From NCBI GenBank assembly GCA_026874595.1, contig CM049311.1, positions 22,064,676 to 22,128,675 of the forward strand: a stretch of DNA of 64,000 nucleotides. Direction: 5' to 3'. The DNA is from Sipunculus nudus (Eukaryota > Annelida > Sipuncula > Golfingiida > Sipunculidae). Shown here piece by piece: positions 23,657 to 56,268 of the stretch; position 1 is the first letter of the stretch; every line of letters begins with the position of its first letter. A program made the position numbers and the translations under genes. The notes beneath the pieces are model-generated. The model saw only the letters and a list, made by a program, of their open reading frames with translations, was not told the origin of the DNA and did no database searches.

Positions 23657-23992
23657 TAAGGCAAAAAAAAGGTATGGTTCTCAGGCACCGCCCGCATCAA
23701 TTTTAAACCCCCGCATCAAAAATTTTTATTTTGATTTTCATTAGAAACTCACCAATTTTGAGCTGCAGCTTCTCGGACATTTCTTTCAAGAAGATAAAAT
23801 CATAAAATTTCCTTTGTTATGTAGTGCTTTTACTTGTTTAGCAAAATAAATCGGTTATTATCATGCTTTTCCCTTATCATTTGACATTTTTATCGAAACA
23901 TACAAACAAATTAAAAACAAAAAAACCGCCCGCCCACATTGATTTCGGAAAAAAAGTGCCTGAGAACCATAACTTTTTTTATTTTGGCCTAA
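23657..23992 (+). mobile_element. Small inverted-repeat element (MITE-like), copy B
   Basis: The left end TAAGGCAAAAAAAAGGTATGG continues into TTCTCAGGCA. The right end is TGCCTGAGAACCATAAC followed by T-rich sequence and GGCCTAA. The termini are therefore inverted repeats about 28-33 bases long, built on GGTATGGTTCTCAGGCA. Immediately inside, CCCGCATCAATTTTAAA and a rightward ...CCCGCCCACATTGATTT block form further partly paired arms. About 336 bp, no coding capacity. Copies also lie at 7838-8166 and 55972-56268. The superfamily is not identified. Confidence 0.8.
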
Positions 23993-24053
23993 GTCTTCTA
24001 CCATTACTTATATGGCGGTGGTTCATTGTGTCATTTAAGGGGCGGACCAATTT

Positions 24054-24076
24054 CCCCCCCCCCCCGGGGGGGGGGG
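24054..24076. repeat. C12G11 self-complementary block
   Basis: Twelve C followed directly by eleven G: a perfect inverted homopolymer pair with no loop. It may mark the junction of two G-rich repeat ends or an assembly-prone site. Confidence 0.8.
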
Positions 24077-24415
24077 ATCTATAGTGGTTTAGCCACATAT
24101 CTTAAATGAAGACTTTCTGGAATTTCTAAACTTCTTCAACCTTACTCAAGGCTTCAGTCAAATTCTGTTTATCTGAGATATTCAAGCCCTATATCGTTAA
24201 ATATATGTACAAATTCATATAGATCAGGCAATTAATAATAACAATTAGTTGTATTTTTACAATATTATTAGCAACGGGTTTTGGGACACAATTTCTAAGT
24301 TTATTGAATAAAATGTTTGTCGAGAAGGAGGGATTAGGTTCACGATCACAGAAAGCCCCAACTCAGGATTCGCCTGCAATTGAAGACAAAACAGAAGAAT
24401 AAATAAAATTCAGTG

Positions 24416-24416
<1 letters not shown>

Positions 24417-24478
<62 letters not shown>
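24417..24478. repeat. (AT)n followed by T16 tract
   Basis: An AT dinucleotide run to about 24463, then a T homopolymer to 24478. Confidence 0.95.
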
Positions 24479-27459
24479 AAAGAACATACATGAAAAATGT
24501 ATAGCCTCGTGTGTCAAGTAAGTCAGCTTGGGCTTATTTCACAGTCTTTCGGCATCATTGATATGTTACATTAGATTCAGTGTGCCTGTCATAGACAAGG
24601 CAGAAAGAAAGATAAAACTAAATCCAAGCGTTACTGACCGATTTTTGCATCAGAGTATATAAGCGGAATAACGTGTAATCTAATATACATCACGCAAGTC
24701 GGCCGAAGGATTCGTTTTTCCGCGTGAGAGAGGTTTTATCCAGGTTTCTGGCGCAATCTCTGGTCCAATGCGTCAAACAGTCAAAACGCAACTGCCACAA
24801 GTTGGAATTTGGGCTTTATGAAACAGTATATATACAGGTGTTTAGGCTGTATGCTAACATCCCTTGTGTACACAGCTGGACAGGTGTACAAGCAATGGTA
24901 CTAACACTGCAGGCACAACTTAACGCTTTTCTTCGAGGTTGGCGGTTGTTTCAGCTTGTTACGCTGTAGCCCCTCTGGATCCACTTGCTCTCATTAATAG
25001 CGGGGTATTCCTTGGCATGAAATAGTGTTTGTGCGACTTTGCATTTTGATTGAAGGCAGCCTGTTATTTCTTAAAATAAATATCATATCTCTGTATATTC
25101 AGGCACCGACGTTATATACTGGTGGCATATTTGCAGTGATGTAATAATAAAGAAATCATGCATGCTTAAGTTCTGTCTGAATGTTAGCTACAGGCCTGTA
25201 ACGCAAACAATTCTTATTAAATTATTCTTTCATGTTTGCGTAAAAGTTCCGGAAGTGAAGAGTTTACCCTCTAAAACTTGTTAAGATCTGAACAAAGTGG
25301 TTCAGACCACGTAAGTCGATAATTCTCCTTGGCTTGTCGTTTAAATTCCACAATTACTCAGTATTATCGTAACAATATGACATTTAGAAAAAAGGACCGA
25401 CTGCATTACGAGTACTTGCAATGAAAACAAAAGTTTCTTGTATTAACAATACGTTATTTTATTCCTCCTATATTTTCAGGTATGAATTATGGTGAACATA
25501 CTGGTCGGTGGAATTTAGCATCAAGTTCTATTTATAGTCAAACTGCATTAAAATAGAGCAAGTACTCGAAAAACAAATAGGCCTGGTCTCCTTAAATGTA
25601 TTTAATCAATTTGCCAGTAGAACAGGGACATCCTCTAGGTAATGAATACAGTAGAATAGGACACATTGTTATGGAACCGTTTATTTATAATGCTAAGATG
25701 AACATTTCATATATATCTGTGTATAGTGTGGTAAATGTGATTTTTATATGGGTTGAAATCGATTTGGATGCGACCAGTTTATTCTATTAAGAAATTATGA
25801 ATATTAACATGCATGAAGGCTCATGTGTTATGCAATATAAGGAACTGCGGAAACCAAATAAAATATTATTAGATGAATATTACAGATGACACTTATCATC
25901 TACGTTTTCAAAGGTGAAAATGTCCACGTCTCAAAGCTGCTTCCTTCTAATTTAGTAACCTTTGTACTTTTGTTTCACGTGATCAAAGTAAACCATGTTT
26001 TGATCATTACAACTAAGAAACCAATTGTCAAAACTAATTACACACTCACACCTCATCAATCCTGTCATTTTCTACCTGTCACATCAACATGCGCTAGGAA
26101 TGACTTGGTTTTATTTGTACTGGGGCTGATTAAACGGTTTCTTCCGCCTTTGAGCCAATGGGTCAAGCCAAATTAGGAAAACATAACAGAGTGGAAGAGA
26201 GCTGGTAACATTTCTCGGATAATAGGACCGTAAAGCAGTCCAAAGGAGATTTCGAATTCCGCCTCATTACATTTGTATCGGACATTTTTTTGTGAGCCAC
26301 AGAATCTCACTTCAGCCCCACCCTTATTGACCCTATCGAACTAACGACTGTGGTTTTGAGCTTTGAGCTTTTATAATGAAACATTCATTATATTTAAGTT
26401 CGCACAGTTTGACATGAGATGCATACCTTTCTTCCAATCAGGTTATTCCGCCTTTGTCTGTCGAATTCTGCGATTCCAGCCCTTCCTTATATCATAATAT
26501 TATTTACATAAACAAAGTATTGAGGGATAACGCTATCCAGAAGCTAGAGTACAGGAAGTTCAAAAGAACTGATCACGTGACCTATGGAATACCATCTCCT
26601 TTTTGTCCGCTTAGCTGCTGGTGGTCTTTTCATATTTGCAGCTTAGTGTTGAAGCTCGTGGTTCAAAAGATCTTTACACAGACCCGATTACACTTCACAG
26701 TAGTTTGCAGGAAGTTATGTTTAAAACTTCCTTGCTTTAAAACTTCCGTTAATATATCCAGCGATATAAATTTCAGTAGATCACAAGATTTTTCCTCTTT
26801 CTTCGTATTGCGTATATCTGATATATTACTGCTTTTATAAAAGGTATATTATCACTTAATTTCTCTATGACATTTGCTGAATTCACTTACAAAGACTAAT
26901 TTATACAGAATCATAGTAGGTGTTCATGAGAATTTATGTATAAATTGTTTTAATTCATATTCTACTTTTATCCTCCATTATTAGCCAGAATGTATAAAAT
27001 AATGAAGACGTCCTGGATTTTGATTTCAGGAAAACCTATAGACTTTTTGAAATTTATATATTGTTTTTATTGACATCGCTGCCTTCCTGTTTAAATATGA
27101 AGTTTATCAACACCTAGCCAAAAAAAGGCTTACACCTAACCTTGCGCCTTAGACATTTGATTAAGAACGTCCTAAATAACTCCTTATTCTTTTAATATAT
27201 ATCGTCTTATTGCATGAAAAGTTCACAAAGTGATATAATTGGCAATTCTTTACCCTGATAGTGTAAAGATTCTTATTGTTTCCATGATTGATAAGAGAAT
27301 TCCTTGAAAATCCAAACCAGCGTTCCTCAGTCTTTAAAATATGTGGACCAATGAACATTGTCCTTCTGCATATAACTCGTTCAAGAGGTTCAAGGTTCTG
27401 GTGTCATTTAGAAATTCTCGAGAAGGAAAAAAACTAAATTCCTTGTTCCTTTGACATGT
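24479..27459. other. No gene supported
   Basis: About 3 kb of AT-rich DNA. Open frames of up to 128 codons (26454-26840) have no domain, and that one begins with a non-ATG codon. No repeats recognised. Confidence 0.4.
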
Positions 27460-27670
27460 TATCTGAAGAGGCGCGAAAGTATTCCTCATTGGGTTAAGGA
27501 TTAATTACCATGTCTTGATTACAAAATGCCTTCTTAAGTGTCTCTCCAGGCATTCCCCTGGGTAATTAATCATACAAGTACCAGAAACCTAAGAGTGATT
27601 AATTAGCGCACAAAATGTCAGGTTATCATATTGGTCTGCCTAATTAAATCTGATCTCGGCCTTGACAAAG
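27460..27670. promoter_or_regulatory. Cluster of four homeodomain-type TAATTA sites
   Basis: GGATTAATTACC (27498-27509), GGGTAATTAATCAT (27560-27573), GTGATTAATTAGCG (27596-27608) and CCTAATTAAATC (27639-27650) lie within 155 bases, spaced about 60, 36 and 43 bases. The first three combine TAATTA with an overlapping ATTA, as in paired-class dimer sites. The segment is repeat-free and non-coding. An enhancer role is inferred from motif density only. Confidence 0.35.
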
Positions 27671-28860
27671 CTGTGGAATAAAAAAATAGCAAAGATGTCA
27701 TAACATTGTAACAATCAATGTAATATATTTTTCTTGCTAATTATATCGCTAAATCCGCCCCTGATCCCCATCAAACTTTCGGGTACCCTGTGTTACAAAC
27801 GCCGGAAATATATGAACGGACGCTCAGGAAATTCTATGGCACAGTTCACCTACTCAATGCTTGTATCAATGGTCAGCTCTGCCCGCTAGAACGAAAGCGA
27901 CAAGTACTAATATTTCAAGACCCTCGCCCTCTGCCGGGATAAAATATTACCATTGTTGGATTGTAAAGAAGCATTTTAATGGAAAACATATCGATCCAGA
28001 AAATCTCCAGAATGACACCAACAAAATAACCAACCAAAAAATAACCACCAACCAAATAATCACCTTAAGACGAAAAACAATAATATATCCTGGTATAGAT
28101 ACATAAAATAATATATAACATTCTGTATTATATCTTAATTGTTTATATATAAACAGTATATAATAATATATTGTTATCATATGTGATTCCTAATCCTAAC
28201 ACATTACAGAGTGCCACTGAGGAGAAATATACCTAGTTTTAATAATATATATATATATAATAAGTTCAAGAGCTCGGATTCATTGCCTATTGCAATCAGA
28301 ATCATGATCTATATTTTTGAGCGCACGCACGCTGTCGATGTGTTAAGTGTAGCATTGTATTATGAATTACATTAGCAAATGGTATTGGCGTGGAATACAA
28401 AGCAACATCGCCCGCATCTGTGATGTGTACACAGTATGACAGATTACAAAGGTCACAAGTACAAAACCGTCTGTCCACAAAGTGTCAGTGATGAAAGGTC
28501 AACGCAACAGAGCCACCGGTGTCGATAATAAATAAATCATAAATGACTTGTCTGTAAATGGGGGCAATAACACGGGCCCGCAAAATGGCGCAGAGTGGTA
28601 AATGAGAGACTCCCGCTGAGGCGTGCGACCAACAGGTGGGCAGTTGGAATTATATATATTATAAGTTTTATTACAGGTTAATTGCCGCATATGCTCCTGT
28701 TATTTAAATTGTAGAATGATTAAAAGTGGATTTTTCAAACGGCACATTTTTGGTTCGAATGCGAAGCCTCAGTCTTCAAACGTATCTCCCTTTTATGAAC
28801 GGACAAACTATTTCATACATCGCATGATAACAACTTAACCCAACGTTTGCGGTTAAGCTT

Positions 28861-28862
<2 letters not shown>
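27671..28862. other. No gene supported
   Basis: AT-rich, with AACC/AATAACC-rich simple sequence near 28015-28060 and a short AT run near 28245-28260. Confidence 0.4.

Positions 28863-28928
<66 letters not shown>
28863..28928. repeat. (AT)n microsatellite
   Basis: About 66 bases of uninterrupted AT dinucleotide. Confidence 0.95.
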
Positions 28929-28930
<2 letters not shown>

Positions 28931-29169
28931 CATTGGCGCTAATGGAGTTCTCGTAAAACATATACAAATAACGGGCTTTTAGTCATTTAATAATTCATCA
29001 GCCTGCAATTATATATGTCCCCTTATTGATTTAACAACAGGCGCCAGATATGATATATCTTAGATATAACTAATGGCATCCTAATGCATTGGCTGTACTA
29101 CCTGTAACCCAATTTCTGCTGATTGTAGTGACACATGTATTGATCTTTCATGACTGGTCTGTTTACCCG

Positions 29170-29932
29170 TTCTTGGAAACGCGTGTACTTCTTGCAGGTT
29201 ATGTAAGGAAAGTGTATCAATTACTTAAAACGCTCATTAAATGAATGGTCGATTACTCATCCGTTCATTAAACGGTTTGTCTACGAGTTGCTGGAAACAC
29301 GTGACGTCGTCCATTTACTTAACGGCATGTCTACGATTCATCCATTGACAAAACGCTATGTCTACGATTCATCCATTCACTAACGGTATGTTTACGATTC
29401 ATCCATTCATTTAACGGTTAGGGGAAACACCAGCCGTTCATCCATTCATTTAACGGTTTGTCTACGAGTTGCTGGAAACACGTGACATCTTCTATTCACT
29501 TAACGCTATGTCTTTGTTCCACCTATTCCCTAAACCTTATGTCTACGATTCATCTATTCGTTTGTGGAAACACATGTTAGGGGAGTTAGTGGAAACACGT
29601 GCCGGTCATCCATTCAATTAACGGCATGTCATGGAGTTTCTGGTAACACGTGACGTCGTCCATTCACTTGACGATATATCTGCGAATAGTTGGAAACACG
29701 TGACGGTCATCGATCAATTAACGGTATATCTGCGAATTGCTGGAAACAGGCGCCGGTTATCCATTAATTAATCAGACGGTATGTCCGGGGACTTGCTGGA
29801 AAAGAGTGACGGTTTCCTATTCACTGAACGGTATGTCTACAAGTTGTTGGTGACACGTTTTACCATACGTTCAATAATCGGTATATCTACAAGTTGCCGG
29901 AAAGATCCCAGTTATCCATTCACGGAACGGCT
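29170..29932 (+). repeat. Two-length minisatellite, 50-bp and 30-bp units
   Basis: The consensus unit is AACGGTATGTCTACGAG, then TTGCTGGAAACACGTGACG, then a TCATCCATTCA-like end. Starts aligned on AACGG-like motifs lie at about 29271, 29321, 29352, 29382, 29413, 29452, 29502, 29532, 29620, 29670, 29720, 29775, 29827, 29877 and 29926. Spacings are mainly 50, with a group of 30-31. The short form lacks about 20 bases containing the GGAAACACGTGACG part. Units are diverged and no reading frame is maintained. Confidence 0.85.
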
Positions 29933-32900
29933 AACTTCAACTCTGGGTACAGCCAAATAATCATTGTTCAAAAATATGTAGCATTCTTAAAGTGTTTGGG
30001 GCTAATTATGGAACATTACATATTTGTCAAGTTAATCTAGTACTGGAGAGCCTCGGGCACGTTCTATACATTATACATGGTCCATATTATGAATATCGCC
30101 GGGGGATGTGTTTCAGATCCTAGTATTGTGAGTCATGGCTAGTAATGATCTACCATGTTGTAATTGTCATGTATGTACTCTGGTATTTAGGCCTACCTCC
30201 AAACTTTAGTCAGAAATCTTATCCATATATTCTGAAGTACGGGTTAAATGGCACTCGAAAAATCCCGGTATGTTTGCCTGACATTTATGAATTTCCGCAA
30301 GCTCTGTTAGAGGATGTGAATGCAACTGATTTTTGACAGAACTGTATTCCAATTTGTCCGGGTTGTGTCAGCAACATGACTAGGTTTTTTTTTTATCGAC
30401 ATAAGACTCTGTCATTTGGTAGACCATACAAAGAGAAAACGTGATGACGGAAAAATATCAATCCAATGAGAAGTGGTAAATTCTTACTACAAGACATGCA
30501 CGGTAAATCTTAAACCACACAATGATAACTTAGGCTGGCGGGGTCTATCAGTCGAGTATATTCTTCACTGACCAGTCCCAGTGGTCAGTATTTCTGACTA
30601 CTAAGCTGAACACTTGAGGTGTTGGTACGTATTTGACGGCGGCACGATTCGGCCCTGCCGATTTTTAATCAGTCTTTAAATGGGGATATTGGACAACCAA
30701 GCTGGTATTGGGCGTGCTACAGCCCGGTGGGGGTTAAGGGAGCTTACGTCATTATAGGACTGCACATGACAGGCTGTGGGATATGCATTTGCGGTGTTAC
30801 CGGCAGGGTTCAGTGGCGTACCGGTGTGTTGGGTTGCCCAGGGTAAAAAAAGCTATACTATCTTAAAAGGATGCCAAACTTACATGCTGCAAAAGTGAGC
30901 TTATACAAAGAAAATCTAGGCAAGCGTGGTTAAGGATATGCATGTAAAATAGAAGCGGTTTCCTGCACCAAGAAAATAAAAACTCTTCTTGCAAACAAGA
31001 GGAACGGGAAATATTGGCGGTTTTGAGGGTAGCAAAGGATTAAGGTTTTCAAACAATGGAAAGGTTAAAGGGGCCCAATCACCTATAAAGCATGTTGAGT
31101 TAACACAAAAAATAACTTCTTCCCTTTAAAATAAATGTGTACCTGCCAAAATATTGCCCTGAAACCGTTTTCTTTCTCCTGAAAACGAATGTTAAAAACA
31201 GTGGACCGGGCGCGATGACAGGTTTCAACATAAACACAACGCTTGGGGCCGTGTGCATCGCTGAGCCAAAACACGTGTCAACCAGGAGATGCCCTGCCTG
31301 ACTTGACCCAAAAAAATGTAATACATGTTCGCGCTGGCTGAAACACCACGTGTTACCCCTCTTTATCGGACCTCCGGTCACGTTGCCTTGTATTGGTAAA
31401 CAGACTGTGTTTACCAACACGCAGAGCCGTAACATTGTGTTAAACAGCAGTATGCGAGGATATAAGACCTTGTGCTTGGATAGTTTTGCTGGGAAACATT
31501 TATATTACGTAAAACTGAACTGATAGAGTGAACGAATAGATAAAAAACTAGCCCCTGATTATGTCCCTTTACTTTGCGACAAATAACATTTTATTCCTTT
31601 TGCAATATGGTACATATTTGGCAGTAATGCTTGAAATTGACCAAATGATATATCTTAACATTAATCATACCATGCTGATATAACGATATATAAACAGGCG
31701 AATGTTCAAGAGATATAGTAAAGGAATAGAACTTTTGGACTTCAATATTTATTTGCAGTGGTGAATCTGGCAAATGAATTGGAAAGCAAAAGAAACAATA
31801 CGCGTCTTGGACAAAGTGTTTTCCTTATTTTCAATAGTGCTGCACGGAGAGCAAACCCCTTAGAGTTTTGGAAAATACTTATTTCAAAATTTGATCGCAT
31901 TTGAAACGTTAAGCCACGCTAAACCGTGCATCATAGGTACAAGATGTCCCCAGCAAATATTCTCCTGAAACTGTATAATTTCACACTCATTATTACATTC
32001 ACATGATTATTTTAAGAGCTTTTACTTTTTTCTCTTTTTATATCTCATCCACGGTTCACTGACTCAGTGGTTGCATCTCAGGTGAGCTCTGTCGACCAGA
32101 ACAAAGACGGCCCCTTACCTAAATGAACGACTATCGCGCTCGACAGGGATAGACAAGCGGTCCTCAGTCTGTCTCGCAGTAACTGCAATATTGTTATGGA
32201 CTGCCCCTCAGCCTCAAATGGTCTATTGTCTTAACCCTTAAAACTATTGTTTAATTTCGTTCATAATATTTGGCCATCCTCTGGCGCGAATCGAACTGGG
32301 GACCTGAATCTCCGAAATCCAGCTCTACATCACCTTTACAACCAGGTATATTTAAAGCAATTTTACACGGGTTAAGGCTGTGCGTTATGAGACTATCCGT
32401 AGAAGCTATATCGCTCATCCGCCGGCTGATATTCCGTAGACCGTATATCTTTTCAGCTTTCACGCTTGATGAAAGAGGGCTATATATTACGCCCACTGAC
32501 AAGATCTGAAGCGAATACCAACAAATCTGGGCATCTTTGCCAAGCGCTGGATAATCCAGAGCTTCCTGTATGGAAGGGTATCGTTTTCCAGGCCCATGCG
32601 TGGGAAGGACAGATCTAGATATATACCTATATTAAGATTATATTGATATGTAAAGGAAATAAATGGGACAAAAAACTTCACTCGGGGTATTGGTAGTTTT
32701 CACTTTGAAAGTCAGTTATACATGAGGAAGCCAAGAACAAAATATGCGGTATGCCTTTGTTTATCCTTCTTTTCATAATTTGAGATTTCAGTTATCCACG
32801 TAAGAATTTTATATTCTGTTACTGATTATTTTTATTTCTTTCATAATCTTAAACTGTTTTTGTGTAATATTACATTTGAACAGACATTTGCATATAGGGC

Positions 32901-33749
32901 GCATCCATCTTACTGCATATCCTGTCTCGCATCATTTAATTGGTTAACAAACAATAAACGCTTATTTTAACCAATCAAAAGGCACGACATAACACATGCT
33001 TTTTGGGTAAGCCATCTTGTTAAAACTTACTGCTTACAGATATTGCACCTTTTTATCTAGTACTGTGTCTTATTCTCTCCTCATCTTGTCTCATCAAGCT
33101 TTTATCTTTAGAAAATGAAAAAAAAATCGTCATGTAATAATATCTCCTTAACGAGTAAGCAAAATAAATTGTGTTCACTGCATGACCACTAAGACTTGAT
33201 AGCGCGTTTCTAACAACCGCATCGTGTTTGTGCCATATTGGTAATGAACTTTATACTTATTATCAAAAGACCTGTGTATTAAGTAATTGAGCTGTTAATA
33301 AGGTCCCATTTAATACCCAACCATGAATCTTTGACATTAATATAGCTTCATGCTTGGCGTAATATTACTTTCACCATGATTATGGTGTAGAGTATAATTT
33401 TAGATATCAGAAATTACAAGCAATGTCATAAAAAGTTTGCCTATATCCGGTTTCGGGGTCAAACCAATTGAAATACAATCAAGTTGTATTGTGCCCGTAA
33501 AATATATTTTTTTTTATCTCAGCTATACCGGTGGATGTCCCCAGGGAAATCTCGTGAAACTGGTTAGCACGGTAGCCGATCTCAGACAAGTGCACAGCGT
33601 ATGTGTGACACATTGGCTTACTGGTATAATAGGAATCTTTCATTATTAAATTTGTATGCTTTTCTTAACAGGTTTTTGATATGTTGCACGTTAAATTCAT
33701 GATTATAAACAAGTTTATAATCCTCTTTTCGAAGTTACCTATATGGCAT
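29933..33749. other. No gene supported
   Basis: Nearly 4 kb of AT-rich DNA. A stretch at 32282-32345 has a weak B-box-like GTTCGATTCG on the minus strand but no tRNA fold. No repeat or exon could be supported. Confidence 0.4.
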
Positions 33750-33799
33750 GGGTTCAGTAAGGTGACACCTCTTGTAATGATAAGCTTCAGACTTGAATG
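33750..33799 (+). repeat. 50-bp dispersed duplicate, copy 1
   Basis: GGGTTCAGT, GTGACACC and CTTGTAATGATAAGCTTCAG blocks match 34373-34421 almost exactly, with a few substitutions. It sits just before an (AT)n tract. Confidence 0.75.
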
Positions 33800-33811
33800 G
33801 TTTCCGACTGA

Positions 33812-33814
<3 letters not shown>

Positions 33815-33850
<36 letters not shown>
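33815..33850. repeat. (AT)n microsatellite
   Basis: AT dinucleotide run of about 36 bases. Confidence 0.95.
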
Positions 33851-35670: not shown

Positions 35671-37514
35671 GTTACAGATGGTTACTATACGAAATTCACC
35701 TGGCAACCATCGTGTTTTACATCTGTTCTTAATGAACTAATCTATAATTTAATGCCATTTAATTAACCTTTAATTTGCTCGTGCTGCAATGAAGTATGAA
35801 TATCTGATCTTAAAATTAAGAAAGTGAGGTTATGCTTATTTCCGTGCATCAGTAACATTAGGTTAACATGCATTATATGACTTTAACAGCTTTTTTTTAT
35901 AAACAGATAACAGCATTCTGAACATCTGTATATCATTTATATTCATTTTAATATGTGCCGCAACAGATATAAATTGATACTGCCTTTGCTTCAATACCGC
36001 ATTCATAAACAGGGGAAAGTAAAAACGGTCTTCTATATTATTTAATCGGTCATTATCAACAGACGGCGATCGATCAAAGTGTTATACGTAGTGAGTTATA
36101 AATAATAAAGCTTATAAGTGATATTCGGATACTATCGTCATCTCGTCCCATCCGAATTTGTCGAAAAAGTCTTTTCATTCTAATAGCCTATTTTACAACG
36201 ACCCGGGGACAAATGCTTCACCAAAATACCTCAAGTAAACCATGAGTGCCGTGATTATTCCTGGACCCGTCCACTGGTGCTGCCAGCTTTGCAATGCGAT
36301 TGTTTAATATACGGTAGTTACTTTGGACCGTATTAGAGGGAAAGGATAACATTTATGACCCAAAAGACGATTTTACCCAATACACTACTTCCAAGGGCAT
36401 GGCCAAACGTTAAACAGTGCTCTGTTCGGGTTAAATGACCCATCATCACGGGATCTTACTGTCAAGAGGAAAACGGGTTCAAATCTGAGTCAGATACAAG
36501 AGCTGTCGGTAAATAAAAGACTCGCAGTTTAAATGAATTAGTTCTTATTCAGTTCCAACTTTTTTTGTATATATAAGATTAACGGATCCCAGACATTCAG
36601 TTTCAATCGTTGCCGTTTGGTGTTGCTAGTTTGGAAAAGTATATTATATTGATAACTGCTGATACCAATGACCAGTTAATCATATTTTTTTATGTTTCAT
36701 TCTTTCTGATTATACTATAGTGAATAAGCAAACTGCAAACAATAACTGAACACAAAACAAAAACACCGGCGATTGACACAATGTATCCAACGGGAGAGCT
36801 ATATTAGTCACTGGGCCCCTCCCCCTGTCACCTATTTAAACGACCATCCTACTTATTAAACTTGGTTCCCTTACTTTGACCCCCCTATCCACCTAAATTA
36901 AGATACAATCACTTCAAAATTTAATTAGTGGGATGTTCGGTTAGATAACTGACAGGAGAGGGGCCCAGTTATGCTTGTAATATCGCTCACCCGGTGAATA
37001 CATTGTGTCAAGCGCATGTACCAAACTATTTTTCAAATTGACCTTCTTGTCCTAACTGCGTATCTACGGTCAAATCTCTGTATTTTGTAGGTTGACAAAT
37101 TATTCTTCTTCTCCAGGGCACCTCTGTTTATTTCTAATTAAGATTTTAAAAAAGAAGTTACACATCAAAGGAGCCCGGATGTCATTTTTTGTTCACCCTC
37201 ATGGAAGCCTAAAGCTGTTTCCCTGTGATAATAAAAACTAGAGGTAAACAGTGATACAGAATTTCACAATTTTATTTATTGAAATAATGAGAAAAATTTG
37301 TTTTATTACAAACAAAGAATATTCTCTTGAAAAATAATGGTCCTCTGTAAAAAAAGTGAATGACAAAATGGTGATTTTAGGGAACGTTCTCCGGCCAAGC
37401 CGGCCAGGAAATGTGGTCATGGTACGTTAATCATTCGGGTCTGCGTCATTAAAGACCTGTGTGACTTCACAAATGTTATCGAATATTAATTTTGTTTGTG
37501 TTGTTATATTGCAG
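35671..37514. other. No gene supported
   Basis: AT-rich sequence. The 3' end (about 37486-37514) is a T-rich tract ending TTATATTGCAG, which resembles a 3' splice site ahead of the ORF described at 37649. Confidence 0.35.
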
Positions 37515-37897: not shown

Positions 37898-38623
37898 CGA
37901 TTATTTCTGCAAAGCATGTAAGCTACTCTTTACTATACAGCACAACCATCAGTCGTTTTTGTTACTGTGAGAATGCAAAAAGCCCAATCTCCTTATCACG
38001 TAAATTAATAACCGTACGTTGTATTTTAGGAACTGCATTTTTTTCCCTTGCGTGTACACTGTTTTATGAAGCACTGTCTTCTTTTCCGCTGGATTATGGT
38101 TGATTATCTGTCAGACAAATCTCCACAGACTTTGAACACTTTGCCGCTACTGTTTTGGGGATATATATTAAATCACAAAAGCTGGCTTGTATTTAGGTTA
38201 ACACCGTCAACACTGTTGGGTTTCTTTTTTAACGCGAGGTGCGGGCTGTTGCATGTTTTCCGGTTTTTACGATGCCATTTATGAGCGGAGATCATAAGTG
38301 CTAATCCATTCCGATGAAAAAGTACAAGAGTCCTTCAGATGTTCTTTCATATTGTTCGCGGATTTTTTAATGTGATCGTGAAACTCGGTCCTATTAAAGG
38401 CTCTGTGTAAAATCCCATTTGTCCAAGAAATCTGTATAATCTAAGTTTCTGCTAAGTCAATTAATATTATAAATAATGGTATTTGTATAGGAAAGAAATT
38501 GTTGTGAAATACACAGAATAACCAGGAATCGTGACACTCCTTGTCATCCGATTACTTCTCATGTATAATTGAATCGTTTAATTAAAATAATGTATATATA
38601 TATATATATTTTTATATATTAAT
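37898..38623. other. No gene supported
   Basis: AT-rich, with a short AT run at 38591-38610. No poly(A) signal clearly tied to the upstream ORF. Confidence 0.4.
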
Positions 38624-38632
38624 ATATTATAT

Positions 38633-38752
38633 GAAGCGAAAGTTAAGATAAACAGTGACGCCTTTTAGATAGACTAACTAGTTTATTAACACTAGTGTTA
38701 ATAAACTAGTTAATCTATCTAAAAGACGTCACTGTTTATCTTAACTTTCGCT
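38633..38752. mobile_element. Near-perfect 118-bp palindrome with apparent 9-bp target duplication
   Basis: The arms 38635-38693 and 38694-38752 are reverse complements at 57 of 59 positions with no loop. The centre is AACACTAGTGTT. Both mismatches are C/T transitions. ATATTATAT occurs directly outside on both sides (38624-38632 and 38753-38761), which fits a 9-bp target-site duplication of a foldback element. AT-rich context weakens that point. No coding capacity. Confidence 0.7.
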
Positions 38753-38761
38753 ATATTATAT

Positions 38762-39423
38762 AACTTATGGCTTCCCGCTTTGGTACAATATATCTGACAA
38801 ATAATGCCCATAAAATATGTTTATTTGTTAGTCCAAGTAAAGGCTATCTTTAGTTTGATATGTACAAAATATATTATATATATACAAATATAAACATAAA
38901 AAGTAGATACATCCGTTTCACGAAGTAAATGGATGAATAAAGACCATTCGAATTCTTTCACGAAAACGATGTGAGACCACGGCGACTGACTAGAGAAATA
39001 CTGCCGGAACGGAATCAACGATTATATTTCATCCCGGCAATTTCTTTGAAACGGTTCCATCTGTATGGTCAAGGGACTACATTGTATGGTTTAGGGTTAA
39101 TATCCAACGTCTGGCCGTCTGGGAGGGCCTTTCTCCGGGAGAATTTACCCGACTTTAATATCGGAGATGTGCAGTGGAGATGCTATTTTTTATTAGACAT
39201 GCACTCAACTGGTGATGAAGGCAGGGAAGACCGCTTCATCCTGAGATAGCCCGACAAAGAGCCAGACGAAAACTTAAACATGAGACGGGATTGCAGCACG
39301 ACATGTCGTTCTATAGATCATAGGAAGACGGGCAGTGGTCGCAGTACTCATCCCATATGTTGTATCAAAAACGAGCAAAAATCCTGACTGCTAACATTCC
39401 GTGAAGCAGATTTCCTTTTCCGC
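38762..39423. other. No gene supported
   Basis: An open frame of 92 codons (38971-39249) has no domain and no clear start context. Nothing else is recognised. Confidence 0.35.
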
Positions 39424-41085: not shown

Positions 41086-42278
41086 CTATTAGATAGGGAT
41101 GAATCGTTTCTAATGGAGTGTTATGAGGAAGACTTGATAATAGTTATAAGTCTAAAAGGATTCCTAAACCAAGATATTCACCTGTTATCGACTAATGTCT
41201 TTTCCCAAATTAAATTCATTGTCCATTCATAGTATGATTTCGTTCACGGCACATATACTGACTTAAAACTGAACACTTTAAATCTTGACGATAAAACGTA
41301 GGTACTTTCCTTTCGTATCAAATATATTGGAACTCTGTTGCATCAACCAGAACGCCTTTATTTTTTTATTGAGGCTGTATGGTGTGCTTAATTGGTTTTC
41401 AAAACTGTAACCTTTTTGTCGCAAAAATATCGATTAAGTACATAGAAAACAACATAATTTCGTTCCATACCATTTGCTCCATGAAGCCCTATGTTCTTAA
41501 TTCTTCTTAATGAAAGAATGCAAAAACAACCTAGACAGTCGGCCGGCAACAACTAGTCCATAACTCCATAATTCAGGTTAAGGCGGGGATAAATATTTTC
41601 TCAACGATTCCCTCTGAATCATTCTCCCCGGTAAACTCTGAATCAATCGAGCCCAAAATATCCAGCGACAAACACATTGAAGTCATCAATTCCCCTCTTC
41701 TGAGCTTCCGACCCGTAAACATTCGGAATTACCGTTATTGTAGGATATTGGTGCTTTCTTGCATCATGCGCTTGAATTCTTCTTCCGCCTAACATTTAAA
41801 TGGCCATGAAGTTAATAAAATAAAGTAGACGATATCGTTTATGATAAAATAAATTCATCAATACTATAACTAACAATGCGTTGATTGTGCTTCGCTGGCA
41901 GTATGGTTTAACGATTACAGGTCTTTAAACTTTAATTGCGTAAAGTTAGGTAAAATGATGTTCAAGAAAATATAGTTTCAGTGTTAAACTAAATTTACAA
42001 TTTCAACATGAAATCTACATTCTGAGGAATGCAAGCCTCTGCCATGTTTGGGTCATATTGTCGAATGCTCCCAGAACCGTGTTTGCATTCACTTATTCGG
42101 CCCGTATTCCAAGGTTCCTTGGTGCATAAGTGATTTCATTTCATGAATACTCCATGATGGCGTTCCTAAATCCAATTCATGAGCCTAATCTAAACCGAAT
42201 TCAAATAAATTCTACATAGACCCATTCTTAAACTGCCTTGGAGATTCCGTTTATGATTCCGTGAGTTATGGTTTGAAA
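41086..42278. other. No gene supported
   Basis: AT-rich DNA without recognisable features. Confidence 0.4.
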
Positions 42279-42352
42279 GAAAAAAAAAAAACAAACAAAC
42301 AAACACGCACACAAACGGGGATGAAAGTATACCCTCCTGGCGGAGGCAATGA
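42279..42352 (+). mobile_element. (CAAA)n-tailed retroelement 3' end, copy 3
   Basis: An A-rich run, ACAAACAAACAAACACGC, then ACGGGGATGAAAGTATACC and CTCCTGGCGGAGGCAAT. The CTCC..GGAG inverted pair is typical of this tail type. Confidence 0.45.
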
Positions 42353-44205
42353 CCTGATGGACGTTACTGCCATGATCTTTATAACACGAGCATCATTGCT
42401 TTTTTATCATCATCATTAGAGCATGGAAAAAAGTTATGATTCGTTGTGTGTACAACATATTCATAAAGTGAACAAATAATTGGTCTACTTTTTTGTCTAT
42501 AATTCCGCTGCAGAAGAAGACTCTTTTTTACCTCTGCAATTTCTATTTGAAAGTAAATCTAATCTCATGTTGGGGTAATTATGTCTTTAAAAAATATATA
42601 AAAAATGCGTGTGCTTGGCAAACTTGTTGTCCGCGTCAGAATTTATTGAAAAAAATTAAACCATGGAGAAAACCTTTATGTAAGCTACCCACTCTGTGAG
42701 TTGTAAATTGGTAATTTAAGATTTTTTCGTGTGCAATCGTTCAGCTTAGTGAACAAACAATGCCTGCATAAAAATCAGGTTTATATTGGTAATAATATAG
42801 CCTAAACTCAGCTGAATGCCTTCAGTGTAAGATTCTTGGTACAAGTATCTGTTGATGTACTTAGGATGTGTCAATACTCTCCATTCACTGTATAGTCAGT
42901 TTTACTTAAAATATAAGATTTATTCCAAAATTAATGACAGAGGACCATTTCAGGTGAATAAGCCGGGGACCTTTTTTTTCACAATCAATAAATATAAACA
43001 TCATATTAAGCTGGCAAACGTAGTTGCTCCAGCTATTCTAGTGGCGCCAGAGAGTATACTTTAAATAGGACCCTCAGGCTGCGCTTGTTCAGAAATAACT
43101 TGAGGAGAGACGGTTCGGGCCTGTTCAGCTCAACAGGGAGTGCTTTAAAACACCAGTCGTTCAATTGGTCTGGCTAATATTAAACGTCATATGTTTGATA
43201 TTTTTGAAGGGATAGTGGGGTTAGCACTGGATGTTCATGCAAACAGTAGTAATCTTACTTCTAATTCATTCCGCCAGAAGAATATGCGTACATCCCCGTT
43301 CGTGTGTGTGTTTGAATATTTGTTCACAACATAACTCACGTGAATCATAAACGGAATATCTAACATATACAGAGCATTTCGAAAATGGGCCAAGGAAGAT
43401 TGATTAGATTTGGATGAGGAACTGATACATGATCCGGATTCAGTAACGTCATCAAGGAATATACACAGATGTACAGTCACTTATGCATGAAATAAATGGG
43501 AATATGTGCCGAAAAGGTGAATGCGAATAAGTAAAGGCAAACACATGGCACAGGCTTGCATTCCTTAGAATGCAGATTTCTAGTTAGGCTGAAGTAAAAC
43601 AAGATTTTAATATGCTGAAGTTGGATTGTTCTTTATTAACTCAAGGGAAATCGTTGTTTGAGTGTGTTCTAGATATAGAAAAAGGCATCATTTGCATTAC
43701 TACGCAGTTGGAATCATGGGGTCACAATGTGGCCATTTTTGATGAGTCAAACATTGCAATCAATCTCGTTATATCTGATCTGGGGGGGGGGGGCAAAGGT
43801 ATTACGCGATTATCTTTGTTCGTTAGTTGGTTTGTTTGTTAGCAAATATACGTAAAAAGTAATGTATTAATTTTTATTCAATTTTAAAGATGTTCAGTTA
43901 AACAGCCAAGAAAAAGTCTATTAAATCTTTTAGATAAACTTGATCACATTTTTTTTTTGCATTCAAAGGCTCTTTTTGATATGTGAAGCAGGCAATTCCT
44001 GTGTCCGTGTATTCGAATCGCCCATTGATAGGCATTCATTTCATTTGAAGAATACGTGTTACTGAAGCGTGAAACAGCTTATACACATAAGTTGTTTAAA
44101 GTAAACGACTTTTAAGAATGTAAAAACTTGAACAACTATGAATGCTTTAAAGTTTTTTTTTTATTTAGCGTGTCTTTGTTTGTATAGATTTCAAAGGGAA
44201 TTAAA
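42353..44205. other. No gene supported; G12 tract at 43782-43793
   Basis: AT-rich. A run of twelve G bases interrupts the sequence at 43782-43793. Open frames are short and without domains. Confidence 0.4.
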
Positions 44206-48586: not shown

Positions 48587-48587
48587 A

Positions 48588-48893
48588 ATGGAATATTGGC
48601 TATTTCTGAATTATCAACAGTACCGAGTAAACAGCAATGGTTTTAAATCACTAGGATCAGTATGCGAATATGAAAACCCTGATTCACAGACAATAGTGGG
48701 TAACAGCCTTCACACAACAACCCAGACAATAGCGAGTAAACAGCCTACACACAACCCTCAGACACTAGCGGGTAAACAGCCTACACACAACCCACACACA
48801 CTAGCGGGTAAACAGCCTACAGACAACCAACAGACAATAGCGGGTAAAAAGCCTACACACAACCAGTGCTTAAAGTTTATTAATTATTCATAA
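48588..48893 (+). CDS. 101-codon ORF built on a 12-residue repeat, doubtful
   Basis: ATG at 48588, stop at 48891-48893. The middle of the protein is five copies of a QTIAGKQPTHNP-type 12-residue unit, produced by the 36-bp DNA repeat. Because 36 is divisible by three, the frame stays open across all units. The flanking residues have no domain and no signal peptide. It may be a repeat-containing exon or only a minisatellite that happens to be open. Confidence 0.2.
   Translation: MEYWLFLNYQQYRVNSNGFKSLGSVCEYENPDSQTIVGNSLHTTTQTIASKQPTHNPQTLAGKQPTHNPHTLAGKQPTDNQQTIAGKKPTHNQCLKFINYS
48687..48866 (+). repeat. 36-bp minisatellite, five units
   Basis: Units start exactly every 36 bases at 48687, 48723, 48759, 48795 and 48831, with consensus CAGACAATAGCGGGTAAAC then AGCCTACACACAACC. 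Variation between units is small, suggesting recent expansion. Confidence 0.9.
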
Positions 48894-50110
48894 GTTTGTT
48901 AACACTCACTTTATAATGATTCTTAATTGATTAACAAAGTACAAATTCCTTTGTAATTATAATTGCATATCGAAATCTGTCAAAGCACCAGGGGTAACAT
49001 CGTGAAATCTAGTTGAAAAATCAGAAATTCCCTGTTATGTCTTCAGGTTAACGTTATATATATGTCTCCGAAATACGCATAGCAGCATGACACCTAAATC
49101 AAAATATGTAATAATATGTAATTCTTTCATTTCATTGGTTCATTGTTCAAGTAAACATTTCCAAAATGATGTAAAGGGCGTATCAGCAAACTGAAGATAT
49201 TCTTATAAGAGCATATATGTAATTGTTATAGCTTGAGTCAGGACACCCTAAAATGCCACCTTTTATGTCTAGATTAAAACCATTCTTTTTTAAACCCAGA
49301 TGTTAATGTCATAATGGTGACAGTTTATGTTTTTTATGGCTACGTCGCAGGCTTTGGGAACACCCCGGCCATTGTGAAGCTTGGTAAATGTACACGCTGG
49401 TGATTGTCTGTGTATTATACTGCCTTTCTACCTCCGAGAATTCTCCATTTACGGCGTCATCGATGAATGATGCGATGGCTGATTTACCATCATCTGTCGT
49501 CATAGGTAACCAAGATGGCGGGCTAGCTGAGAGTGCTTTATGATCCTAACCAACTTTGTGTCGTACAGTGTCTGCCCCTTATCCATAGACATTTAAAATA
49601 TGGATGGAGGGGCTATTTATCGAATCAGCTATAAGTATACAGTATGTATGGCATGTTGTTTGATATGTTGATAATCATGTCTGATAACCGTATGTTGTTA
49701 TTTGTTAGGTCTTGTGTTTAAAGTTTTACATTCCTGAGTAAAGGATAGTAAAGGAGTTAGGAGCTATAATTTATAATTAGAGAAAATTTCAATGGAGAAC
49801 CTGAACTAGGAGTTTTTAAGTAACATCTCATCATGATGGACAAAACGTCATTTCTTACGAATCAACGAAATCACATATAGGCCATTACTTAAATTTACTT
49901 AATTTTCAGCAATGACAAAAGGATTATTAAAAAATTATTTAAAATTTAATACAATAACATGGGATTTTCTTGAAGCTGTGAAATGGTTGTCGACATTCGC
50001 CCCTGATTTAATTAATAATGTACAATTAATGTTTTTTTCGGGAGACCGAGACCCCTTAAACGATGAGGCCCTAAGCCCATACGTAAATCCGGTACTTGGG
50101 CTCTGGCGGG
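48894..50110. other. No gene supported
   Basis: AT-rich, with no recognisable repeat or exon. Confidence 0.4.
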
Positions 50111-50337
50111 TTGGGAACCAGGGACCACCAGGTTAAAAAGTTAGTTTTTAAGGTTTTAGGTCCCCTTCCAAATGACTGGCTCAGAAGACTTTACAATAAA
50201 CTTCCCGGTGGTAGCTACCGGTTTTGAGGTCGCTAGGGCCCGCCATATGCAGATGGCACTAAAGTACCAACTTGTAATGCTGGGTAGACATAAGTACCTT
50301 TGTGACTGAGACCTTGCTTATGGGGCTTGGGGAAGAA

Positions 50338-50416
50338 GTGAGAGGCTATGGGATTGGAACCCATGACCGCTTGATCATATATCCGGCACCTTTGTCCCTA
50401 TACCAATACACCCCAC
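50338..50416 (-). mobile_element. tRNA-derived SINE head, minus strand
   Basis: The minus strand starts GTGGGGTGTATTGGTATAGGG. It has an A-box-like TGGTATAGGG, and a T-arm with ATGGG and CCCAT pairing around TTCCAAT (B box GGTTCCAATCCC). It ends GCCTCTCAC, which pairs with the start at six of seven positions allowing G-U. The D and anticodon arms do not fold properly, so this is a decayed tRNA-like head rather than a working tRNA gene. A SINE body may extend towards about 50110. Confidence 0.55.
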
Positions 50417-52657
50417 AGGGTTAAGTCCAGTTGGATTTTTCAGTTACTGTTGGACCTAGTCTGGCCATGCTGTGTCTGTGCACAGACAGAAGATATGTAT
50501 ACAGATGTATACTCGTGTTACTGCACAATCATATGGATAGCGTTAACTTGCAATCCGCCCCCTCCTCTTATTTATTTGAGGTAGAGACTGCCGAGTTAAG
50601 AACATGTTATGCGACAGCCTTGGTATCTCAGAAATGCCAATATACTGTAATCCGGGCTTTATAGAATTGCTAAAATATTGTGTCCTCTGTTGTGTCCTGA
50701 CAACTGACGAGAATACCCAAGGGATGATAAAATACTGGTTGCAAATTGTTTCTGACCATGCATGCATTTCAATTGGAAGGTCTTTTTTATTACAAATGAG
50801 TTAATGAAAAAGTGTTTCCTTTCCATCACACGCCATGTCCTACACATAGGTAGAAATAATACAGGTACAAGCAGTAACAGTCAATAAAACATAAAAACTG
50901 GAATCCCAGTGCATGATCAATTGGACTTGGGTTTTAGGAAAAATATATATATAGTGGCATATACAACCAACATGTTTATTAACATGTAAATTGATGTGCT
51001 CAGAGTGATTAAAATGATGCATGGACGTGTAGACTCAAATCTATGTATTATTATACAACATATTATCCCGAAATATTTTGAGATGAATTTGCTGCGTAAA
51101 ACCTCTGTATAAATGTTTTACTCTCTGTATAAATGAGTGAACTGGATTACATTTGGGAAGCTCTTCAGGTGGCTTTTAGGAAGAAATTTTAGTACATCAG
51201 AAATCACCCATAGTTCCTTGTGTTTGAGATATATTTACTGCATTTCCAAGATGAACCTTGTGCATGCTGTTTACCTTTGGTTTATTCTCCTACAAATCCA
51301 TGGTTTTCAGCACAAAAATTGTTTCGGTCCCCTCCTTTTGGCCAGAAATATACCATGCCGCGTTGACTTCTGTGGTAAAATGTTAACATATTCAGTTAAC
51401 AAATCATCATAAATAGGACAGCATTTACCACATTGTACTATAAAGAAATTATACTCCATTCAGCTCTTTTCATAGAATATGGTTCCATATCACGCTGGTT
51501 TGAAACATATGTTCGTCTTTACCATATCCCCTACCAACCTGAAACGCAGCGCTCCTCCCTTGGCAGGCGCCAGAAAGTAAAGCAATCTAATTGTTCCGGA
51601 GAATGGCATTTTTACCATCTCCTCTCACCGCTGGAGTTTCCCTCTTCGTTTTCATGGCATTTTGGTGTTTTCGGGCTCTGGAAAGATCAGTTACACGCAC
51701 TGCTCCCCAATGTGTTGGCTTTTGTTCAGTTCTTCCCCGATATCCTCATTTCCACCTTTTCCTCTGAAGAAACATAGTTGTTAATTTCACGCCTAACACT
51801 TTCTGCTTATTTTGTTTCTTTCCGTCTCTGGAATTTCCATTAGGTGTCTACAGCCATGTGCACACTAGCCACCCGCAGATCACTTTCTGCCTGATAGGGC
51901 AAATTAGAACTGTCATTGGATCCTTATCTATACTTACTATGTATATTGTTAAATATTAAAACGTCAATAATTGTTGATTCTGGCCTAGCTCTCTGTATAC
52001 CTGTCTAGGAGATCAACAAGAGCCAGTGAAGATAGCAGGATTTTTGGAATGCCTAGAATAGCCAAGGCACCTGTTAGTAATCAAAACCACTTCGTGGTCA
52101 ACACATGCAGCAAATCTAGGCATTCTGCAAGTTCAAGATTTCAAGAACCGTTTAAAATACTTTATATCAAGAAAAAGAGGATGAGAGGACGCAAAAAAAA
52201 CTTCAATGGAGACATATTAACTCTTTTTTCTACATTTCCCGCCATATACTCGGGCACGTTGTTTATTTGCGATTTTTTATAAAACAAACTTTTTTTCATG
52301 ATTTTCAATAATAATCCTTTTACCTTTTATCAATGTAAAAAAAAAATTTTTGCAAAAAATACCCTACGAATTTGAAATCACTAATTGGGGTTGACGTTGT
52401 TCTTCTCACATATTTTATGACATATAAATGACATATTATATGAAATTGTTAGTCGCTGTGTTTATGGCATGAGCATTGTATTAAAAGCTGATCATAAATA
52501 TATCTAAGTTTTTTTCAATGAAATATTGTCAATTATTTTTTGTTAATATACCTGGTTTGCTGGTTGTTGTGCAAGTAAAGTGTGTAGCTATAAAACGGAT
52601 GAAAAGGCGTTCTTATCAAAAAGCGCTTTTACCATGGCAAGTTACTTTATATATATA
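50417..52657. other. No gene supported
   Basis: Open frames up to 114 codons (51433-51777) without domains. No repeat recognised. Confidence 0.4.
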
Positions 52658-53270
52658 GCGACAAAGATGTTGAACGTGTTACGTTGTCCTTATTATCCTC
52701 AGATATGTTGTGATGTAGATGATGAACATGTTACGTTTTCTTAATACGTGTAGCGACAAAGATGACGAACACGTTACATTGTCTTGATACGTTTAGCCAC
52801 AGAAAAGACGAAAACGTTACGTTGTCATAATAGGTGAAGCGACAAAGAGGAAGATGCAGGTTACGTTGTCTTAATAGGTGAAGCGAAAAAGATGAAAAAA
52901 CAGGTTACGATCTCAATACATGTAGCGACAAAGATGACGAACACGTTACGCTGTCTCAATTAATATGTGTAGCGATAAAAATGATGACAGGCTACGTGGT
53001 CCTTATAAGTATAGCGACGGAGATGATCAACAGGTTACATAAACTTAAAACGTATAGCTACAAAGATGACTTTGTCCCGATATGTGCAGGGATAAAGAGG
53101 AATAAACAGCACTTTCACATTATACGGAATCGTTGTACCTATACCTGCTGTGGCAATGATGATCAGAATACGTTTTTGTAATAAGTGTAGCGACAAAGAG
53201 GAAGAAAAAGGGGTGTTGTCAGATTTCGTTGTCCTAAAAACGTACAGCGGTAAAGAGAACGATAAAACGA
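52658..53270 (+). repeat. Minisatellite of about 43-bp units
   Basis: GCGACAAAG-like motifs recur at 52658, 52753, 52796, 52839, 52883, 52925, 52972, 53014, 53057 and, more diverged, near 53090, 53189 and 53247. The consensus is GTAGCGACAAAGATGACGAA then CACGTTACGTTGTC and TTAATACGT. Regular spacing of 42-47 in the core and decay at the edges indicate an ageing array. Confidence 0.8.
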
Positions 53271-54144
53271 AGTCGATTTACCCTGTCTGTTTACGGGGAC
53301 AACCTTTGGCCAAGGGGATGTTTTACAAGGTTATAAAGACTTTACAATAATTTGCTTTACCAGGCTTCTGTCTTCTGCCTCTTGGGAGACTTCCTTAGAT
53401 ATAACGTATTGATTGAGGCCTAGTTTCTGCATCTATAGACAAGTCAGGGAATTCAGATTTGGTCATGTTGAATTCATTGATTATTCTACTGTGCCCTTGC
53501 CCTTGGCTACCACCTGTATTGTACTGACCTGTATAAGATGCCGTTGCCATTTAAAGAAATAAAAACCAAAAATTTCCCAATATTTTTATTTGTTTCATTT
53601 CAGATATTTTATTTATATGTTATTTTGCCCGATTTTCTTGAGGCCACAAATAAGGTATCTCAAGACAAGTTCAATGCCGCTAAGAAATGAATTATAAAGC
53701 CACACCAACAGAATGAAGACCGGCACACTCAGAATAGGGAATGTACGAGTTTTTTTTATCAAAAACTGAAACCATGGAGGTCTCCTGGTAAAGTTAGGGT
53801 CCATGTTTTGCCTCTGTAGCGAGGTCTACGAAACAATTGCTTGAGCTTAGATTTTCTTTATCTGTGATAACTCATCTCCCTGCACCTTGCTGTACGTTTC
53901 CCATAAATCCTGTTTAACTGGATATATGGACCACATACAAACAGGGATTTAGATATATGCTCAGGGATTCATCCTCTTGATAAAATGTAGTTGTTAGTTT
54001 ATAACACGGTTCCACACGTAACAGCTCCATTTAAATCAAAACGATGCACTGTTTATATTGATGTTCACTTATTCGAAAACTGTAACCCTCCTTAAGTATA
54101 TGGGCTCAAGGAAGTAATTATGGTCCTATAAATACTGGTGTTAC
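53271..54144. other. No gene supported
   Basis: AT-rich sequence, nothing recognised. Confidence 0.4.
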
Positions 54145-54480
54145 CTTTTTTCTGGCTCAGGGGTAGAGCACAGGACTCAAAGCCGGGGCATCGTGAGTTC
54201 GAATCTCAGCCGAGGCGGTGAGATATTTCGCGGTCAGCCACCACCAAAGGGGAGAGCTCTGTAGGCTTAATGGGAAGACCGTGCCCAACGCTCGTGTTTC
54301 ACTCACAAACGAGTGCGCCTTTTGGGGGCCGGTGGTTTGACCCAGCAATGGGGACGATTACGCATCCAAGGCCCGCAGGTGCAGTAGTCTTCAGGCCTGG
54401 TTGACGCCAGGATATAAAATGAGAGAAAGCATATGATACTGTCCTGTCACGAAGTCCGAGGCCGGAATGGAATTCAGTAG
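54145..54480 (+). mobile_element. tRNA-derived SINE, plus strand
   Basis: The A box TGGCTCAGGGG at 54153 is a perfect match to the Pol III consensus, and the B box AGTTCGAATCT starts at 54196. T-arm pairing TGAG/CTCA is intact. The body includes GGGGAGAGCTCTGTAGGC, GGGGGCCGGTGG and GTCACGAAGTCCGAGGCC. The 3' end and tail are not certain. The SINE family and core-domain type are not identified. Confidence 0.65.
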
Positions 54481-55971
54481 ATGTATATATACGTAGTTAA
54501 GTTAGCATTTAAAAAAAGGAGGCGGTAACCTCCAACAAAAATACACTAGTGTTACTTTTCCATCACTTGTAAGCACCAAACAAGAAACCTTTAGTGGTAT
54601 ACTTCATAATATGGAACCATAGTATCAGGATATCATGTAAAGTAGGCGGTTATTGTAATTCTAAGTTATATAGCAGTGATACAAACATTGAATTTAGACC
54701 ATATGACAAGTTCGTTGCCTTAACATGAATGGCGGGTATACCAATAATTATGGCATGTGACCTGTGACATCTGGATTTATAATGGCAGCCCCCATTAGTG
54801 TTTCCAGAAACTGGGAAAACAAACTTTTCAGGGTCAGGGTTCGAAAACGGAATAACATTTTGGAGGGCCAAGCCCAAATCAGCAAATTATCGTTGGATTC
54901 AATGGTAAAATGAGGTCTGGTGGGGCGGGGGTAGCCTTTCACGGAACTCCGCCGTATTTAAGATCTAGCACACACTCGAGCAAAAGAAAAAAAGACCAAA
55001 TTCCCAATCGTCGATGGTACCTGGGAGGACGATAACCATCCACCCCCCCCCCCCCTCCACCCCCCCCCCCCCATTCGCCCCCGGCGTAAGAAAAAAAAAG
55101 GTTCAACACGAAATAAACTCATAGAGTAATAAATGAATACCCTCAATATTTACGGGGTTGGCTCAACTAAGATAGAAATGATTCCTTAAACAAGTCAATT
55201 TCGTCTTTAACTTAATAAAATTTGACCTTCCATAACATGGGGGTAACATGGATCATTTGTGTGTCACAATTTGTCATCTAGTACATGTATGCCAACCTTG
55301 TAAATTATATTAACGATTTTGCGAAGCCATGTTCATGAAATGTTGGCAAGTTTGTGGACCTTGGGAATCTCGAGCTGTTTGGGGAACATGTTACACAACT
55401 GGCGGCCACAGTTAGTCTAACCCTAGCGGTCCTAGCGTAGTATGCCAGCAGCGGCAGAACCGTTCTCGGCCACATTATTTAGTTGGGCTTTCAGTCATTA
55501 CTCCACAGTGAATGGACGCTTCCAGGCTTTCTTTCCAACTGAATGGTTGCTCACAGTCGAATGCCCTCTACTACCGAATATCAGAGTATTTGGTCATAAA
55601 GTGTAAAATCATAAAGTACATTATCAGATACCTAATTACATGGACTGCTGCCGTCCTGGAGCTCAGTGAAAGAAAATTTGAATATATATTCGGTGTTGTT
55701 TAACGTGCCACTGTTTTTATATCATCCATTTGAAACTCTACTTTTTACAGATTACCAATCAATTATGTGTAGATTTCAACATGCAGAACTTCAAAATACC
55801 GTTAACATAAAATGCACACATTCAAACTCATCATTTCCATGGATACAAGTGCAGTGGAATTCGCAGGCTCTACTTCAAAATTTCAAGATTTAATTAGAAA
55901 ATCTTTATCGACAATTTTCACCTCAATTGAAGTTATTTGTTGAAAAAAATGATAAAAATAGAGGAAATAAA
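54481..55971. other. No gene supported; double C13 tract at 55043-55072
   Basis: Two C13 tracts separated by TCCA at 55043-55072 give a strong i-motif / minus-strand G-run potential. The rest is ordinary AT-rich DNA. Confidence 0.45.
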
Positions 55972-56268
55972 AGACCAATAAAGGTATGGTTCTCAGGCAT
56001 GGCCCGCGTCAATTTTAACCCTCGGCAATAAATATTTTGATTTTGATTTTCAACTTTCAAGAAAATAAAATACAATTTTGATAAGATTTCCTTTGTTATG
56101 TAGTGCTTTTACCTGTTTAGCAAAACAATTCTGTTATTATCATGCTATTCCCTGATCATAAGATACTTTTATCGAAACATACAAAAACAAGTAAAAAAAA
56201 AAAAAATTGCCCGCCCGCACTGATTTAAAAAAAAAAGTGCCTGAGAACCATACCTTTTTTTTGCCTAA
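55972..56268 (+). mobile_element. Small inverted-repeat element (MITE-like), copy C
   Basis: The left end is AGACCAATAAAGGTATGG then TTCTCAGGCA. The right end is TGCCTGAGAACCATACC then T8 and GCCTAA. The 17-base core GGTATGGTTCTCAGGCA is a perfect inverted pair. The interior matches copy B (TTTCCTTTGTTATGTAGTGC, TTATCATGCT.TTCCCT, TTTTATCGAAACATACAAA). About 297 bp, no coding capacity. Confidence 0.8.

Follow-up and report, generated by a model that had tools for sequence, protein, structure and literature searches.

MITEs are shorter than about 600 bp, rich in AT and devoid of coding capacity, carry terminal inverted repeats and occur as many dispersed copies. Inverted ends at both extremities are a feature of cut-and-paste elements, and Stowaway elements have a TA duplication. 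PIF/Harbinger families show TWA duplications and ends that for the most part are shorter than 60 bp and usually begin with A or G (PMC4482050), and mPing makes a 3-bp TAA duplication and requires ORF1 and TPase (PMC2836001). The genome of Sipunculus nudus is reported to measure 1,427 Mb, with repeats at 47.91%, Harbinger DNA at 0.31%, Helitrons at 16.83% and a heterozygosity of 2.03% (PMC10212961). Here we describe three related elements, A, B and C, in a 64-kb stretch of the S. nudus genome, which we call the window. They probably form a Tourist-like MITE family that a PIF/Harbinger transposase, encoded elsewhere, once mobilised.

Three copies of one family

The three copies all have the same orientation and were placed as follows.

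7842–8162, plus strand: copy A, the most diverged member, 321 bp, from blastn to B and C and from its flanks
23660–23989, plus strand: copy B, 330 bp, from blastn, shuffle tests and flanks
55971–56265, plus strand: copy C, 295 bp, from blastn, alignment and flanks, with a degraded left boundary

Counting the flanking triplets, the copies extend over 7839–8165 (A), 23657–23992 (B) and 55968–56268 (C). An earlier note on this DNA had placed three copies at essentially these coordinates, and blastn recovered them with 73.6% identity over 326 columns for B and C (E 3.5e-62), 67.4% over 218 columns for A and C (E 8.7e-13) and 66.3% over 264 columns for A and B (E 3.7e-11). Local alignment scores of 258 (B/C), 79 (A/B) and 79 (A/C) lay far above the maxima of 35, 33 and 31, respectively, that were reached in 300 dinucleotide shuffles per pair. 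In global alignments, which took in a few flanking bases, 249 of 292 ungapped positions agreed between B and C (85%), 227 of 314 between A and B (72%) and 204 of 289 between A and C (71%). The three copies are homologous along most of their extent and share common descent. A profile built from the three copies themselves, which they match by construction, recovered copy A with nhmmer (7.2e-91) and detected no additional copy in the window, the next-best place being 3697–3733 (E 0.071).

All three copies have the size and AT richness of MITEs (295 to 330 bp), with a GC fraction of 0.315 to 0.341 against 0.357 to 0.389 in the 4-kb bins of the window. About 41 bases of the interior, present in both A and B, are missing from copy C. 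None of the 118 open frames of at least 70 aa in the window falls wholly within a copy; the plus-strand frame at 23842–24081 overlaps copy B and extends beyond it. With a mutual divergence of 15 to 29% in aligned columns, the three copies appear to be old and are probably inactive.

Inverted ends and subterminal blocks

The termini of B and C, and short blocks just inside them, are the following.

23660–23688, plus strand: left inverted end of B, GGCAAAAAAAAGGTATGGTTCTCAGGCAC, from inverted-repeat analysis
23956–23989, minus strand: right inverted end of B, from inverted-repeat analysis and shuffles
55971–55999, plus strand: left inverted end of C, in which 55978–55999 (minus strand) equals the published primer Snssr35 left at 22 of 22 bases
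56238–56265, minus strand: right inverted end of C, from inverted-repeat analysis and shuffles
23688–23695, plus strand: subterminal CCGCCCGC, left side of B
23926–23933, plus strand: subterminal CCGCCCGC, right side of B, oriented as the left block
56211–56218, plus strand: subterminal CCGCCCGC, right side of C

The inverted ends match at 24 of 25 bases in B and at 22 of 23 in C, so that 96% of positions are paired in each, and judged by eye the resemblance reaches the GGC(C) at the border. Allowing up to three mismatches, the 17-mer GGTATGGTTCTCAGGCA occurs four times in the window, at both ends of B and both ends of C, where 0.08 occurrences are expected; the ends of A are absent from these matches. 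None of 500 shuffles equalled the inverted ends of B or of C. Copy A retains only TAAGGCCAA as an inverted end, which 34 of 500 shuffles equalled or exceeded and which is not significant alone. The inverted ends of a MITE are thus present in B and C, in agreement with the earlier note, which described the 17-base core as kept almost perfectly in these two copies and copy A as degraded. In the window, the 8-mer CCGCCCGC has three occurrences, each on the plus strand and just inside an end of a member of this family.

Target sites and superfamily

When we set the boundaries at the GGC(C) termini, each of the six triplets next to the copies conforms to TWA: TAA (7839–7841) and TTA (8163–8165) for copy A, TAA (23657–23659) and TAA (23990–23992) for copy B, and TAA (55968–55970) and TAA (56266–56268) for copy C. 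An exact 3-base direct repeat therefore flanks two of the three copies, B and C. In copy B, the TAA is a direct repeat lying outside the inverted repeat, as expected of a target duplication. Both ends of A and B terminate in GGC or GGCC. The right end of C is GGC read inward, and its left end is AAG, with AAGACC replacing GGCC, which makes the left boundary of this copy less sure. When boundaries were scanned within about 6 bases, copy B gave TAA, the four-base TAAG and three other triplets; copy C gave TAA and also AAG; and copy A gave GGCC, GCC, GGC, CCT and GTA and not its flanking triplet. A 3-base repeat per copy is weak evidence.

The TWA duplication (TAA/TAA in B and C, TAA/TTA in A) together with the GGC(C) termini points to PIF/Harbinger, and the ends, with a first base of A or G and a length under 60 bp, also have the form found in that superfamily. 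We therefore assign the family with moderate confidence to PIF/Harbinger (Tourist-like), where the earlier note had named no superfamily. Since no partner was found in the frames scanned, this call rests on three insertions. The broader identification as a MITE, made in the same note, is borne out by copies that are short, AT-rich and geneless, with inverted ends, dispersed relatives and a short duplication in two of three cases.

The same boundaries bear on two other readings. A Tc1/mariner (Stowaway-like) MITE, with a TA duplication and ends starting AGGCC, would suit copy A, which reads TA|AGGCCAA...TTGGCCT|TA and gives a perfect TA fit with symmetric ends, and a TA is also present within the TAA flanks of B and C. 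The right ends of B and C, however, read GGCC|TAAG or GCC|TAAG, so that a TA duplication leaves the two ends unequal by one base where TAA...TAA fits directly, and Mariner is annotated at only 0.05% in S. nudus (PMC10212961). We regard this reading as unlikely. It is quite improbable that the copies are a non-autonomous element of another class, such as a Helitron or Helentron derivative, without a true duplication and with the TAA as part of the element. Helitrons are indeed the largest class annotated in S. nudus (16.83%; PMC10212961), and once the TAA is counted as element, the flanks examined show no duplication beyond it; yet B and C have inverted ends at both extremities, and the triplet of copy B repeats directly, outside the inverted repeat.

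Conservation of ends and interior

The earlier note had also described the ends as strongly conserved relative to the interior. Our comparisons did not support this, the lowest p of six being 0.096. The only region above the interior was the 17-base core in B and C (33 of 34 identical against 193 of 226, p=0.10). In every pair, the whole ends agreed marginally less well than the interior did: 51 of 66 positions were identical for B and C, slightly below the interior (p=0.13), 39 of 62 against 170 of 255 for A and B (p=0.65), and 39 of 60 against 149 of 223 for A and C (p=0.88).

When copy B was folded as single-stranded DNA, 99 of 100 shuffles were less stable (z -2.6), and the long stem of this fold is the pairing of its two inverted ends. 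That the copies are non-mobile, as a conserved structured RNA or regulatory element or as a chance similarity, is very improbable: interior blocks conserved about as well as the ends and the stable fold of B would suit it, but the long stem pairs the inverted ends, the window is without an Rfam match at gathering scores, chance is excluded by the shuffles and about 41 interior bases are lost in copy C.

Partner proteins and proposed mechanism

Among the 28 of 118 window frames of at least 70 aa that were scanned against Pfam, none was a DDE transposase or a Myb-like ORF1, the products expected of an autonomous partner, and 26 matched no Pfam family with E of 0.1 or lower. The remaining two gave sub-threshold matches, which were dismissed as noise (E 0.048, 14.1 bits with a cut-off of 25; E 0.038, 12.7 with a cut-off of 27). 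Rfam at gathering scores and ARAGORN gave no match in the window.

For the Tourist-like family, we propose that terminal regions of 28–34 bp, inverted and starting GGC(C)AAA, would serve as the element ends. A PIF/Harbinger transposase and a Myb-like partner protein, encoded by an element at another genomic site, would have cut and pasted the copies; each copy would have inserted at TAA or TTA, with duplication of that site, and would later have decayed. A bolder version, which we consider highly unlikely, is that these copies belong to a very abundant (tens of thousands), undescribed sipunculan MITE lineage in which the same-strand CCGCCCGC candidate blocks inside the inverted repeats would lead transposition proteins, perhaps those of an undescribed branch of the PHIS superfamily, to bind the ends unequally.

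Further copies and published primers

The SSR primer Snssr35 left, from the primer table of PMC12399082, is identical at 22 of 22 bases to the minus strand of 55978–55999, in the end of copy C. Its partner matches nowhere in the window, even when three mismatches are allowed. From this, we infer a further locus carrying the same inverted end as copy C. The earlier note had held that a lack of further copies would count against the element; this is answered in part by a primer that implies the same inverted end elsewhere, which brings the dispersed copies to three in 64 kb plus that one locus. Sneer72 left, from the same table, matched at 22 of 22 bases at both 1387–1408 and 2752–2773, two copies of another repeat, and its partner is absent from the window. 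The remaining 58 of the 60 SSR primers (Table 4, PMC12399082) had at least four mismatches in the window; these other primers are the fair test, because PMC12399082 was found through the Snssr35 match itself. By arithmetic, chance would give about 4e-7 exact hits to 60 different 22-mers over both strands of 64 kb. On the primer matches, the window is very probably from S. nudus or a close relative. None of the 32 S. nudus InDel primers in Table 2 of PMC12020434 matched the window (best, four mismatches). Primers for unique loci scattered over 1.4 Gb should miss in this way, which does not count against the species; both perfect primer matches fall in repeats, with none in unique sequence.

Extrapolating three copies per 64 kb gives about 67,000 genome-wide, from a tiny, biased sample in a window that was noted for its repeats, and one primer of 60 in an end gives, by arithmetic on a similarly tiny and biased sample, a copy number of the same order. 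Annotated Harbinger DNA totals 4.36 Mb, enough for no more than about 13,600 copies of 320 bp, which implies either an atypical density in this window or the annotation of many copies under different names.

Matches of the element in other collections were judged to be chance. The 17-mer was found in two IMG/VR contigs, where the best shared stretch (blastn, E up to 1) was the 17–18 bases at the 17-mer; the other rows covered 15–22 bases at E of at least 0.025, except for the reverse reading of the 17-mer (E 0.002). When longer patterns were drawn from the two ends, neither viral contigs nor prokaryote genome contigs gave a match; an interior pattern gave none in viral contigs, and copy B had no match to phage or plasmid records. 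Because these collections hold viral, prokaryote and plasmid records, such misses say nothing about copy number in animal genomes. A 15-mer in common between an end and a feruloyl-esterase paper, and a 13-mer in common with two human cannabinoid-receptor papers, were likewise taken as chance. In the literature matched by end and interior pieces, present mostly as titles and the starts of abstracts, the family is undescribed; it may already be catalogued in Repbase.

Other repeats in the window

The repeat matched by Sneer72 left consists of direct copies of about 800 bp at 1306–2132 and 2673–3441, which are 82% identical and separated by about 540 bp. The first begins with TGTTAC, ends with GTAACA and has TATA-like and AATAAA stretches; the second ends in ATAACA and its start is not TGTTAC. 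The pair looks like the LTRs of a short or broken element. At 36769–37015 lies a MITE-like sequence with 38 bp inverted arms, 87% complementary and 171 bp apart, with no obvious target duplication in the flanks examined. Inverted arms of 43 bp, 1.5 kb apart, bound 42005–43585 and belong to a longer inverted similarity between 42010–42344 and 43270–43580. At 38620–38767, two directly adjacent 74 bp inverted arms, 88% complementary, make up a foldback palindrome, and a degenerate tandem array of 43–44 bp units at 52642–53206 is possibly a satellite remnant. TA/AT accounts for 11 of the 29 tandem-repeat rows of the window; according to PMC12399082, AT/AT repeats predominate among S. nudus SSRs.

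Significance and comparison with known systems

The family looks like a new one of a known, common kind, ordinary for an animal genome. It is a modest addition, a probable MITE family in an animal class that has been studied little. Users of Snssr35 left and Sneer72 left should be aware that both primers match dispersed repeats and might therefore mislead genotyping. Should its copies still vary among individuals, the family would supply insertion markers for the population work under way in S. nudus.

Like Tourist-like MITEs such as mPing of rice (PIF/Harbinger), A, B and C are short and geneless, with inverted ends, a 3-bp TWA duplication and a presumed reliance on proteins from elsewhere. 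Unlike mPing, they are diverged and appear to be old, and no partner turned up in the frames scanned; the likeness is one of features rather than of compared sequence. Stowaway MITEs (Tc1/mariner) are similar in size, AT richness and inverted ends, but their TA duplication with equal ends is fitted by copy A alone, and B and C fit TAA better. With the Helentron elements of the oyster Crassostrea gigas (PMC7492417), the family shares a non-autonomous, dispersed character and a lophotrochozoan host. Those elements bear satellite-like tandem repeats, whereas no tandem array overlaps A, B or C, and the ends of the S. nudus family, unlike theirs, form an inverted repeat accompanied by a short duplication.
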